Assembly (NCBI GenBank): GCA_035528375.1
Contig: DATKYS010000065.1
Span: 1-5,593, forward strand
Length of the DNA stretch: 5,593 nucleotides
DNA from: a bacterium
Lineage (GTDB): Bacteria; RBG-13-66-14
Direction: 5' to 3'
The notes below the pieces were generated by a model that saw nothing but the letters and a program-made list of their open reading frames with translations, ran no database searches and was not told where the DNA came from. This document shows, in pieces, positions 162 to 5,593 of the stretch (position 1 is the first letter of the stretch; the number at the start of each line of letters is the position of its first letter). A program made the translations under genes and the position numbers.

Positions 162-719
162 CTAAACCTCCGAGATGTCGGCTATTTTCTCCTCCAGGAG
201 GGAGTCGATCTTGGCCGACTGCTCGTCGGTCATCTTCTGGACCACGTCCACGAGCCGGTCGCGCTCGTCCTCGCTGATGTCGCTCTTCTTCTCGGCGTTC
301 TTGAGCATCTCGTTGGCGTCGCGGCGGACGTTGCGGATGGAGACCTTGCCCTCCTCGGCCAGGCGGTGGGCCACCTTCGCCAGCTCCTTGCGCCGGTCCT
401 CGGTCAGCGGCGGGAAGGGCAGGCGGATGACCACGCCGTCGGAGGACGGGGTGATGCCGAGGTCCGACGACTGGATGGCCTTGACGATGGCCTCCACGGC
501 GGTCCTGTCCCAGGGCTGGACGACGACCATGCGCGGCTCGGGGACGCCGATGGTGGCCATCTGGTTCAGGGGGGTCTGGGTGCCGTAGTAGTCCACGCGG
601 ATGGAGTCCAGGATGGCGGGGTTGGCGCGTCCGGTGCGGATGGCGCGCAGGTCGCGCTTGGTCGCTTCAACGGCCTTCACCATGTTTTTTTGTGTCTCTA
701 TAAGGTGTGGCTCAGTCAT
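162..719 (-). CDS. frr: Ribosome recycling factor (RRF)
   Basis: RRF works with EF-G in the cytoplasm to split post-termination ribosomes from mRNA and tRNA. The 185-residue length is the usual family length. Recognisable blocks are RTGRA at residues 28-32, the VDYYGTQTPLNQMA hinge region at 42-55, SDLGITPSSDG at 85-95, PPLTEDRRKEL at 103-113 and VSIRNVRRDAN at 126-136, ending in the charged helix LLEEKIADISEV. The ATG at 719 is preceded by AGGAGA 5 nt away. That Shine-Dalgarno overlaps the TAG stop of the upstream membrane gene, so the two are probably translationally coupled. Oddity: codons 1-12 (CTT, ATA, ACA, CAA, AAA and others) are AT-rich and the strongly GC-rich codon use starts only near codon 13, next to the AT-rich cassette. 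Met13 could in principle start a shorter protein, but the family needs the N-terminal helix. Confidence 0.97.
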   Translation of the reverse strand: MTEPHLIETQKNMVKAVEATKRDLRAIRTGRANPAILDSIRVDYYGTQTPLNQMATIGVPEPRMVVVQPWDRTAVEAIVKAIQSSDLGITPSSDGVVIRLPFPPLTEDRRKELAKVAHRLAEEGKVSIRNVRRDANEMLKNAEKKSDISEDERDRLVDVVQKMTDEQSAKIDSLLEEKIADISEV

Positions 720-724
720 AGCGC

Positions 725-730
725 TCTCCT
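725..730 (-). promoter_or_regulatory. Ribosome binding site of frr overlapping the stop of the membrane gene
   Basis: AGGAGA lies 5 nt before the frr ATG, and its first bases are part of the TAG stop of the two-TM gene. The same AGGAGAGC string precedes rplM, so this site looks native to the host operon and not brought by the AT-rich cassette. Confidence 0.75.
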
Positions 731-1553
731 AAAGATTCCGTTTCTTGTTTATATAATCGGCAAAAGATACCGTGTTATCAAGATTCCACACAGCCTCGAA
801 ACATTTAGTATATTTTTCGAAAAGACTATTTTCATTATTCTTTATTATGTGTAATAAGGGAGCACTTGAACCAACCATGCCGTACAAATGTGGGGTTATT
901 AGCATATTGTCGTCGAAACGATATATGCTGTTGTAAAGAGTAGTGTTATGAAGTTTTACGTAGAATTTGTTATTTCTTGGGACGTATAATGGTTCTAGCT
1001 GTTCTAACATAGTTACTATTCTTTCCTTGATACTCCCAACTTTCCCTTCCTCATTGTTTCTTGATTTAATAAAATCAAATTCATCCTCGATGACAATTGG
1101 GTTACCAAGTAATATTCTGATTTGCACCATTTTTGCGATTTTTTCATTTAGTATTTCAATGAACCATGGCTGAAAAGATAAATGATGCATTGCATATGCC
1201 ATCAGATCAATCTGACTATTTGCATTTTTAAACATTGTCTTCCACAATAAATTACTTTCATCATTGTCTCGTTCATTCCAGATTGCGATTAATCCAGTTT
1301 TTTGTGAGCTTCGAATTAGCTTGTTTGCAATTGCTAATTGTTTTTTTATTTCAATATATGTATCAGGCATTGTTACTCTGAAGGTTCCAGATATTAAAGT
1401 AGCAGACATTAATGATACACCAAAGGCAAATAAAAAATTATTCCACCCTGGCTCAAATAGGTTAGTAATTGAGGATACAACAAAAAGGATACCAACAACA
1501 GCTAGCAATACGTGAATAACTAGTATCCATGTTGTTGAGGTTGGCTTTACCAT
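729..1553 (-). CDS. Two-TM membrane protein with C-terminal DUF5919-like domain
   Basis: A 274-residue protein of unknown function. Two hydrophobic segments (about residues 9-29 and 38-57), joined by a short loop with Glu-Pro-Gly-Trp, predict a membrane hairpin. A cytoplasmic part follows from about residue 60. Residues 114-257 contain IDLMAYAMHHLS, IRILLGNP (146-153), KLHNTTLYNSIYRFDD (200-215), LITPHLYG (218-225) and a final FEAVW. From memory this pattern matches the C-terminal domain annotated DUF5919 in actinobacterial XRE-type regulators, which carry a DNA-binding HTH where this protein has membrane helices. The H-T-L-Y-RFDD block faintly recalls a phospholipase D-like fold, but no intact HxK motif is seen. 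The gene is AT-rich, starts 5 nt after the NUDIX stop with only a weak Shine-Dalgarno, and its stop overlaps the frr ribosome site. A membrane-tethered ligand sensor or effector paired with the NUDIX enzyme is an inference. Confidence 0.85.
   Translation of the reverse strand: MVKPTSTTWILVIHVLLAVVGILFVVSSITNLFEPGWNNFLFAFGVSLMSATLISGTFRVTMPDTYIEIKKQLAIANKLIRSSQKTGLIAIWNERDNDESNLLWKTMFKNANSQIDLMAYAMHHLSFQPWFIEILNEKIAKMVQIRILLGNPIVIEDEFDFIKSRNNEEGKVGSIKERIVTMLEQLEPLYVPRNNKFYVKLHNTTLYNSIYRFDDNMLITPHLYGMVGSSAPLLHIIKNNENSLFEKYTKCFEAVWNLDNTVSFADYINKKRNL
753..781 (-). promoter_or_regulatory. Possible internal promoter for frr within the membrane gene
   Basis: On the minus strand TTGATA (781-776, five of six for a -35 box) is followed after 17 bp by GATTAT (758-753, four of six for a -10 box). 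A start near 746 would give a short leader carrying the frr Shine-Dalgarno. AT-rich DNA yields such matches by chance, so this is only a candidate. It would let the cassette supply frr transcription. Confidence 0.25.
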
Positions 1554-1558
1554 TATTT

Positions 1559-2026
1559 TTAATAAAAGGTTTTCTCAGAGTTTTTTTGATAATCACTAAT
1601 CCGTATGATTTGAGCTGGGTGAAGATTAATGTTATTTAATTCAGATAAATCAAAGAACTTTACTTCGAGTGATTCTTTACTGATTTTTATTTCCCCGCTA
1701 ACAACTGAACAAAGAAAACAAAGTGAAAATTGTTGTCGTATTTCTCCATCACTATATTCTATTATATGTTGTGGATCTGAATAAACACCGATAAGTTTAT
1801 CAACCTTTATGCGAATATTGCTTTCTTCATAAACTTCACGGATTGCTGTTTCAGAGATGGATTCACCAGGGATCATCGCTCCGCCGAGAAGAGACCAAAA
1901 GTTGTTGTCTTTCCTCCTGTGTAGCAATATTTGCCCTTTGTCATTGATAACAACAGCCGAAGCAGCAGGAACAATTGAATTTGGTTTGGGAGCGTTACTT
2001 ACGTGGTAATAGTCCTTTCTAGCCAT
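1559..2026 (-). CDS. NUDIX hydrolase
   Basis: A 155-residue cytoplasmic NUDIX-family enzyme; the family hydrolyses nucleoside diphosphates linked to another moiety, using metal ions. The Nudix box is at residues 49-71: Gly49, Glu55, then REVYEE at 63-68. Glu64, Glu67 and Glu68 are the expected metal ligands; the usual Gly of the EExG segment is Asn70. The N-terminal NAPKPNSIVPAASAVV and the YSDPQHIIEYSDGEIRQQFSLCF block (82-104) are typical of a subgroup I recall from Actinobacteria, but the substrate cannot be read from them. I chose the ATG at 2026 because AAAGGA lies 6 nt upstream; a GTG at 2041 in the same frame would add five residues but leaves no good ribosome site. The start is 1 nt past the pyrH stop, with its ribosome site inside pyrH, so expression should depend on the operon. 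AT-rich and unlike its neighbours, it is probably acquired together with the next gene. Confidence 0.93.
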   Translation of the reverse strand: MARKDYYHVSNAPKPNSIVPAASAVVINDKGQILLHRRKDNNFWSLLGGAMIPGESISETAIREVYEESNIRIKVDKLIGVYSDPQHIIEYSDGEIRQQFSLCFLCSVVSGEIKISKESLEVKFFDLSELNNINLHPAQIIRISDYQKNSEKTFY

Positions 2027-2027
2027 T

Positions 2028-2747
2028 TTAATTCCTTTCACGGCAAATGACGGTGGCGAAGCCCGGTTCGGTGATTGCGCGTAGCGGTCCGCCCGCCGCC
2101 TCGCCGGAGAAGACTAAAATCTCGATCCCGCCCCGGCGGCAGAGCTCCACCGCGGCCAGGTCCATCACCCCGAGGCGCCGGTCGAGGACCTCGTCGTAGG
2201 TCAGCCGATCGAAGCGTTTCGCCGAGGGGTCGGTCTTGGGGTCGGCGGAGTAGACGCCGTCCACCTGTGTGGCCTTCAGGATTGTTCCGGCGCCGAGCTC
2301 CAGAGCGCGCAGGGCCGCGGCGGTGTCCGTGGTGACGAAGGGCGCGCCGGTTCCCCCGCCGAAGACGCCGATGCCGCCGGAATCCAAAAACTCCCGCACC
2401 GCCTCGGGGCGGTACACGGCCACGTGGCCCGGCAGGGGGATGACCGTGTAGGCCCGGGCCTTGACCCCGGCCGCGCCCAGCGCGTCGGAGAGCGCCAGGG
2501 CGTTTATCACCGTGGCCAGCATCCCGGCGGTGTCGGCGGCGACGCGGTCGGAGAATGCGGAGTCGCGCCCGCGCAGGAGATTCCCCGCCCCGCACACGAC
2601 CCCGACCCCGTACCCCGCGCCCTTGAGTCCCGCGAGGTCTTCCACCGCCCGGGCGAGCGATCCCGCCTCCAGGGGTGAAAAGCCCCCCGGTCCGCGGCCG
2701 CCCAGCCGCTCGCCGGAGAGCTTCACGATAACCCGTCTGGGATTCAA
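2028..2747 (-). CDS. pyrH: UMP kinase
   Basis: PyrH phosphorylates UMP to UDP with ATP in pyrimidine nucleotide synthesis; it belongs to the amino-acid kinase fold and is normally a hexamer. The 239 residues carry KLSGE (9-13), an oxyanion-like loop GAGN (53-56, where most homologues have GGGN) followed by RG, the block ADTAGMLATVINALAL (71-86), GGTGAPFVTTDTAAALRA (131-148) and KATQVDGVY with ADP (158-170). The start is a TTG at 2747, two bases after the tsf stop, with GAGGAG 8 nt upstream inside the tsf 3' end. No ATG or GTG before KLSGE gives a better start; a GTG at codon 8 would cut into the first strand. The last codons (…CRERN then TAA) fall at the border to AT-rich DNA, so the final residues and stop may be altered by the insertion. 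The next gene begins 1 nt after the stop. Confidence 0.96.
   Translation of the reverse strand: MNPRRVIVKLSGERLGGRGPGGFSPLEAGSLARAVEDLAGLKGAGYGVGVVCGAGNLLRGRDSAFSDRVAADTAGMLATVINALALSDALGAAGVKARAYTVIPLPGHVAVYRPEAVREFLDSGGIGVFGGGTGAPFVTTDTAAALRALELGAGTILKATQVDGVYSADPKTDPSAKRFDRLTYDEVLDRRLGVMDLAAVELCRRGGIEILVFSGEAAGGPLRAITEPGFATVICRERN
2033..2038 (-). promoter_or_regulatory. Ribosome binding site of the NUDIX gene inside the pyrH 3' end
   Basis: AAAGGA on the minus strand, 6 nt before the ATG at 2026, lies in the last codons of pyrH. It decides the start in favour of the ATG over the upstream GTG and places cassette expression under pyrH translation. Confidence 0.7.
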
Positions 2748-5198: not shown

Positions 5199-5293
5199 GA
5201 AAAGCCCGTCGTCCGGGCCGGATTTTCGCCTTTGGTGATGGGTTTTTTATGAGGCAGCCCTCACGCCGGCCAGCGCCTCGCATTTGCGATGAC

Positions 5294-5347
5294 GTAGGGC
5301 GGGGACTTAGGTCCCCGCCGCGGGCGACCGTGGACGGTCGCCCCTAC
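5294..5347. repeat. Compound double-hairpin element, copy 1
   Basis: This 54-bp unit starts GTAGGG and ends CCCCTAC, so its ends are inverted repeats. It holds two perfect hairpins side by side: GGCGGGGAC/GTCCCCGCC with loop TTAG (5298-5319), and GGGCGACCG/CGGTCGCCC with loop TGGA (5322-5343). It resembles REP- or MITE-like non-coding repeats. Confidence 0.8.
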
Positions 5348-5411
5348 GGGTCGGGTTTGCTGGATATTGACGTAGGGGCGGGTCTGGCGACCCGCCCGTT
5401 TTTTTAATAAG
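5318..5411. repeat. 94-bp exact direct repeat, copy 1
   Basis: Identical base for base to 5500-5593, with a period of 182 bp. It contains the second half of a compound palindrome (stem GGGCGACCG/CGGTCGCCC, 5322-5343), a linker with GGTCGGGTTTGCTGG, and a terminator-shaped hairpin. No gene lies here. Confidence 0.95.
5376..5405 (+). terminator. Terminator-shaped hairpin, copy 1
   Basis: GGGCGGGTC and GACCCGCCC form a perfect 9-bp stem with loop TGGC (5376-5397), followed after one G by seven T. The polarity would stop rightward transcription, that is away from the rplM operon, although no rightward gene is seen in the window. Confidence 0.6.
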
Positions 5412-5451: not shown

Positions 5452-5475
5452 GACCGCGTTCACCCGTGCGATAAT

Positions 5476-5529
5476 GTAGGGGCGGACCTTTAGGTCCGCC
5501 CGCGGGCGACCGTGGACGGTCGCCCCTAC
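5476..5529. repeat. Compound double-hairpin element, copy 2
   Basis: The same 54-bp layout as 5294-5347, with ends GTAGGGGCG and CGCCCCTAC. The first hairpin differs in sequence but keeps its pairing: GGGCGGACC/GGTCCGCCC with loop TTTA (5480-5501). The second hairpin is identical. Paired changes in the first stem suggest the structure matters, or that different modules were combined. Confidence 0.8.
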
Positions 5530-5593
5530 GGGTCGGGTTTGCTGGATATTGACGTAGGGGCGGGTCTGGCGACCCGCCCGTTTTTTTAATAAG
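5500..5593. repeat. 94-bp exact direct repeat, copy 2 (runs to window edge)
   Basis: Identical to 5318-5411. The match extends to the last base of the window, so the true repeat may be longer. Confidence 0.95.
5558..5587 (+). terminator. Terminator-shaped hairpin, copy 2
   Basis: Exact second copy of the 9-bp stem plus seven-T tract found at 5376-5405, carried on the 94-bp repeat and in the same orientation. Confidence 0.6.

Follow-up and report, generated by a model that had tools for sequence, protein, structure and literature searches.

How did two AT-rich genes come to occupy the pyrH-frr junction of an uncultured bacterium whose genome is 65% GC, and what might they do there? The window (the whole stretch of DNA that was analysed, 5,593 nucleotides) carries on its minus strand, in this order, rplM-rpsI-rpsB-tsf-pyrH, a Nudix gene, a gene for a protein with two predicted transmembrane helices (2TM protein) and frr; rplM, rpsI, rpsB and tsf were named from their translations. 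The features at the centre of the question are the following:

2028 to 2747, minus strand: pyrH, UMP kinase (Pfam AA_kinase, E 1e-35)
1559 to 2026, minus strand: Nudix hydrolase, 155 aa (Pfam NUDIX, E 6e-17)
729 to 1553, minus strand: 2TM protein, 274 aa, with a C-terminal degenerate PLD-like (DUF5919-like) domain
720 to 735, minus strand: stop codon TAG of the 2TM gene overlapping the frr ribosome-binding site (TTTAGGAGAGCGCTATG; sequence)
162 to 719, minus strand: frr, ribosome recycling factor (Pfam RRF, E 4e-66)

The two ORFs between pyrH and frr are co-directional and lie on the same strand as both neighbours, as a sequence-only reading of this DNA had described, and their low GC content is real: GC and GC3 are 0.36 and 0.28 in the Nudix gene and 0.33 and 0.31 in the 2TM gene, while GC3 reaches 0.87 in pyrH and 0.93 in frr, and the sampled mean GC of the genome is 0.65. 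ATG 2026 is more likely than GTG 2041 to be the start of the Nudix gene, because AAAGGA lies upstream of it and homologues begin MxRxDYY, so that the two genes would span 729-2026 within an altered tract of ~684-2046. That reading had also noted the lack of an integrase or transposase, and neither gene, as an integrative mobile element would have, is found among the ORFs of the window; a target-site duplication was not found either, the longest sequence common to both junctions being 5 nt. A scan of the pyrH-frr interval gave no terminator-like site, the promoter-like sites of the cassette are no more numerous than chance predicts (5 against 5.5 expected), and Rfam yielded no match. As for the suggestion that the cassette uses host coupling at both ends, the sequence is compatible with it through its stop/RBS overlaps, and co-expression with the operon is probable because the pair lies between pyrH and frr with these overlapping signals. 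The contig ends carry repeats that themselves contain inverted repeats (GTAGGGGCGG...): two 127-nt copies, at 5285-5411 and 5467-5593, are 91% identical, and 19-52, near the opposite end, holds a related copy that is shorter.

The pyrH-frr junction is normally uninterrupted, as the sequence-only reading had stated: this holds for 28 of the 29 relatives with a measured spacer (-4 to 128 nt), the exception being the congener G003. In place of the cassette, the congener G001 has a GC-rich spacer of 57 nt; the congener G002 has one of 121 nt that includes a run of N, and two further family members have spacers of 93 and 128 nt. The 2TM gene was found in 0 of the 13 relatives searched (six from the same family, three of them congeners, and seven others from the same phylum). 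Recent acquisition of the Nudix/2TM pair is well supported by these comparisons, because a congener retains a GC-rich spacer and the relatives searched lack the 2TM gene. The lateral origin proposed for the two-gene unit is supported by the same empty site and the same missing gene, together with the occurrence of a similar pair on plasmids and prophage-like contigs.

The junctions themselves are informative about the event:

2046 to 2047, no strand assigned: left breakpoint, where congener identity stops after CACCGTCAT (coding strand)
660 to 719, minus strand: 5’-terminal 60 nt of frr, with an anomalous excess of differences to congeners that falls mainly in the first 36 nt (congener comparison)

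Judged from these comparisons, the acquisition is a replacement of sequence instead of a clean insertion, because both the spacer and the final codons of pyrH have been lost and frr begins with an anomalously diverged stretch. Congener identity ends within the last pyrH codons, and pyrH therefore now ends ...ATVICRERN, compared with ...ATVIGP, with its last codons (2028-2046) derived from the acquired tract; the ancestral pyrH-frr spacer is absent. On the other side, comparison with G001 gives 17 differences in the first 60 sites of frr and 23 in the remaining 498 (Fisher p 5e-8), while G001 and G002 differ from each other at 3 of 60; within the first 36 nt, 14 sites differ between the window and G001 and 3 between G001 and G002. 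Over frr positions 61-558 the window, G001 and G002 are roughly equidistant (23-32 differences), and the anomalous divergence covers the first 36-57 nt of the gene. This altered start may have been brought in with the donor DNA or later reshaped by translation-start selection; a somewhat raised AT content at the 5’ end of frr is seen in other family members as well. Leftover ancestral spacer was also sought at the junctions, and the weak local match obtained, on the right side only and with p 0.01 in one of three tests, is unconvincing.

The first of the two acquired genes encodes a Nudix hydrolase with a clear signature:

1823 to 1882, minus strand: Nudix box GAMIPGESISETAIREVYEE (Gx5Ex7REx2EE), which retains the catalytic glutamates

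Its Pfam match, fold and box all place the protein in the Nudix hydrolase superfamily, and when compared with Gx5Ex7REUxEExGU the box is intact save for the final G, which is N. The AlphaFold2 model has a pLDDT of 94, and the nearest folds found by Foldseek are Ap4A/Ap6A hydrolases, which rank best, and MutT-like proteins. The N-terminus carries the signature MARKDYY...APKPNS. The only PADLOC match is PDC-S07 (E 9e-15), and because this model also picks up ordinary Nudix proteins encoded elsewhere in the genome, one of them with a better score, the match is a generic Nudix match and the defence label was rejected.

The second gene had been called a membrane protein, a description that is right as to its two hydrophobic segments and incomplete as to its main body, which is a degenerate PLD-like domain of sensor type:

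1380 to 1532, minus strand: two predicted transmembrane helices, residues ~8-26 and ~40-58 (Kyte-Doolittle peaks 2.81 and 1.69, the second weak)
750 to 1307, minus strand: PLD-like domain, residues 83-268 (VIA-align)
927 to 950, minus strand: degenerate HKD position HNTTLYNS (HxTx4S, not HxKx4D; alignment and sequence)

The protein has no family match in Pfam, PADLOC or NCBIfam. Residues 23-82 of its model are of low confidence, with pLDDT <50 in the transmembrane region, and most of its tblastn relatives align only from about residue 83 on. In VIA-align the PLD-like domain ranks closest to TrmBL2 (5box; Z 14.1, rmsd 2.3, 139 aligned) and to the DUF1669 domain of FAM83B (5qhm; Z 14.1, rmsd 2.8, 144 aligned), then to NucT and, lower, to the sugar-binding domain of TrmB (Z 12.5), and the match to Nuc 1byr (Foldseek E 1e-5, VIA Z 12.7) assigns it the PLD superfamily fold. 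Neither TrmBL2 nor the FAM83B DUF1669 domain is known to be catalytic. The HxKx4D motif of active HKD enzymes was found neither in the window protein nor in its aligned relatives, in which R95, R146, R165, R212, D214 and W256 are invariant; the replacement of the HKD motif by invariant residues suggests that the domain binds an anionic ligand. The window protein does not match Pfam DUF5919 (PF19319), and relatives from G309 and Aldersonia score 22.8 and 21.0 against a cut-off of 23.5 bits; by that score, the 2TM protein would be a relative of DUF5919 rather than a member.

A search for the two-gene pair elsewhere, which had been recommended, found a homologous pair on actinobacterial plasmids, prophage-like contigs and chromosomes. 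A gene encoding an HTH and a PLD-like domain lies directly upstream of a Nudix gene on plasmids of Streptomyces NBC_00562, Streptomyces NBC_01455 and S. goshikiensis, as well as in Aldersonia, G258 and G385; the N-terminal HTH is absent from the window protein, which has its two hydrophobic segments there. On viral contigs, the Nudix alignment alone retrieved 80 loci, and the best 11 of these 80 (L118-L128) all have a PLD-like gene immediately upstream, while the 2TM protein alone retrieved no relatives and a nine-row alignment proved too weakly conserved for such a search. Among 386 genomes, Nudix relatives that align from residue 1 with E <1e-22 occur only in the window's own genome, G385 and G258, of which G385 and G258 also have the HTH version, and the genome survey found the N-terminal extension of the window Nudix protein to be common to partner-linked Nudix proteins. 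With homologues of both genes side by side in these genomes, linkage of the PLD-like and Nudix genes is strong. The two genes are separable, since Nudix genes without an adjacent PLD-like partner are found in Thermoactinomyces (the closest Nudix found, 58% identity) and Kitasatospora, both with the same N-terminal signature.

The combination of a 2TM version with a Nudix gene was seen once only, in the window, and its gene order is reversed relative to the HTH pairs. A second 2TM + PLD-like version, found in G309 (L044 3869-6326), has no adjacent Nudix gene and is followed by radical SAM and HD-domain genes, an arrangement that could be a variant module; apart from it, the phylum of G309 gave weak matches only. 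HD-domain phosphohydrolase genes lie beside or near Nudix genes in L032, L037, L042, L043 and L046, mostly on the opposite strand. As a fixed third component the HD-domain gene was rejected, being near four chromosomal or plasmid pairs, not near the viral-contig pairs, and hence not obligatory. Streptomyces phage Alderaan (L041 3755-4486) has an HTH + PLD-like gene near a Cro-like regulator, and no Nudix gene accompanies it. A search of the available literature found nothing on DUF5919 or on such a gene pair.

These observations can be brought together in a reading to which we give an even chance, namely a laterally acquired pair of ligand sensor and Nudix enzyme in which the sensor has been rewired to the membrane and which is read from the operon. 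Comparison with congeners shows that an AT-rich two-gene operon was acquired laterally in place of the pyrH-frr spacer; sequence and model show that it encodes a Nudix hydrolase and a 2TM protein with a catalytically degenerate PLD-like domain. This domain may act as a ligand sensor by analogy with TrmB, its ligand would be a nucleotide-type diphosphate compound made or removed by the Nudix enzyme, and ligand binding would drive the transmembrane hairpin at the membrane, while the corresponding sensor of the actinobacterial relatives may drive a DNA-binding HTH instead. The pair is probably read at a constant rate from the ribosomal/translation operon. Nucleotide-based sensing, one of the roles first proposed, is thus plausible; the proposed defence pair gained no specific support, the sole PADLOC match being unspecific and none falling on the 2TM protein, and a defence role is possible.

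The best surviving alternative, which we regard as rather unlikely, is an abortive-infection pair, in which the 2TM protein would be a membrane-permeabilising effector and the Nudix enzyme would remove or make an activating nucleotide, with a phage tipping the balance. The combination of a 2TM part, a soluble sensor and a nucleotide enzyme resembles SLATT effectors (PMC9503650), relatives occur on plasmids and prophage-like contigs, and a Mrr-type restriction enzyme lies in another AT-rich island of the genome; however, no PADLOC family matches the 2TM protein, PDC-S07 does not separate the Nudix protein from ordinary ones of the same genome, and most relatives have an HTH and not the membrane effector part. 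Slightly less probable again is nucleotide-pool housekeeping, with the Nudix enzyme sanitising nucleotides, its partner serving as regulator or scaffold, and the operon position incidental. The intact Nudix box, the nearest folds and the HD-domain phosphohydrolase genes near several such Nudix genes agree with this, but the patchy distribution, the kept linkage to a sensor-type protein and the N-terminal extension common to partner-linked Nudix proteins argue against it.

The sensor/Nudix pair is also to be seen against the genus as a whole, in which AT-rich islands are a normal feature, since samples of 80-297 kb contain 3.0 islands of at least 400 nt per 100 kb in G000, 2.7 in G002 and 2.5 in G003 (~2.8 overall). 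Their cargo includes the Mrr-type restriction enzyme (PADLOC mREase_IV, E 4e-62), a DUF3800 protein and an 8xMP membrane protein. Five islands of G000 (L058, L060, L067, L072 and L052) are ~1 kb long, hold one or two accessory genes each and are scattered in the 65% GC genome. In G003, the pyrH-frr junction (L005 2100-2768) holds a different AT-rich gene of 222 aa, which has no Pfam or PADLOC match and has homologues in G000 (C30, 48% identity) and G006 (C157, 44%). Two congeners carry unrelated cargoes between frr and a conserved gene that is the same in both, and the genes of these cargoes have no Pfam or PADLOC match:

L056, 2567 to 3940 (G002): AT-rich cargo downstream of frr
L055, 2488 to 3570 (G003): AT-rich cargo downstream of frr

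A hotspot at frr junctions is suggested by this different AT-rich cargo on both frr flanks in sister species, and three of five readable junctions, window excluded, are occupied, against ~2.8% expected (binomial p 2e-4); the enrichment is suggestive only, since the test was chosen after the data were seen and assumes one junction per kb. A chimera of assembly or binning, in which the AT-rich sequence would have been misplaced in the contig, is highly improbable, for although the assembly has 144 contigs and this one is 5.6 kb, two joins would be needed exactly at coupled gene ends, each join coincides with a gene end at which stop codon and RBS overlap plausibly, islands are comparably frequent in three genomes of the genus, and two congeners have analogous AT-rich genes beside frr.

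More speculatively, and with considerable doubt, the degenerate PLD-like nucleotide sensor could be a portable module with an HTH or 2TM output, tuned by its Nudix partner, in an undescribed signalling or defence architecture, and frr junctions could be a hotspot for integrase-free AT-rich genes. If so, this would be an uncharacterised two-gene signalling module with exchangeable output domains, accessory genes without a recombinase would repeatedly settle in a highly conserved bacterial operon, and the entry of small cargo into core operons could be tested within one genus.

Among described anti-phage systems, PDC-S07 shares a Nudix match with the window pair but is unspecific, and the 2TM protein matches none. 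The 2TM SLATT effectors are predicted to be under the control of ADPr derivatives (PMC9503650). These and other 2TM effectors have in common with the window protein a 2TM part and a presumed nucleotide link, while the window protein has a PLD-like soluble domain and the window contains no cyclase, TIR or SMODS gene. TrmB and TrmBL2 are regulators of archaea that combine an HTH with a degenerate PLD-like domain, which is sugar-binding in TrmB; a non-catalytic, sensor-type domain of this fold is also present in the window protein (Z 12.5-14), which differs in having no HTH and only 10-12% identity in structural alignments. Closest of all is the actinobacterial pair, annotated ‘XRE family transcriptional regulator’ and ‘NUDIX domain-containing protein’, which is likewise adjacent and co-directional and shares 24-33% identity in the PLD-like domain and 33-46% in the Nudix protein; it has an HTH and its PLD-like gene comes first, whereas the window pair has transmembrane helices, begins with the Nudix gene, is AT-rich, and belongs to an unrelated phylum-level group, where it occupies a core operon.
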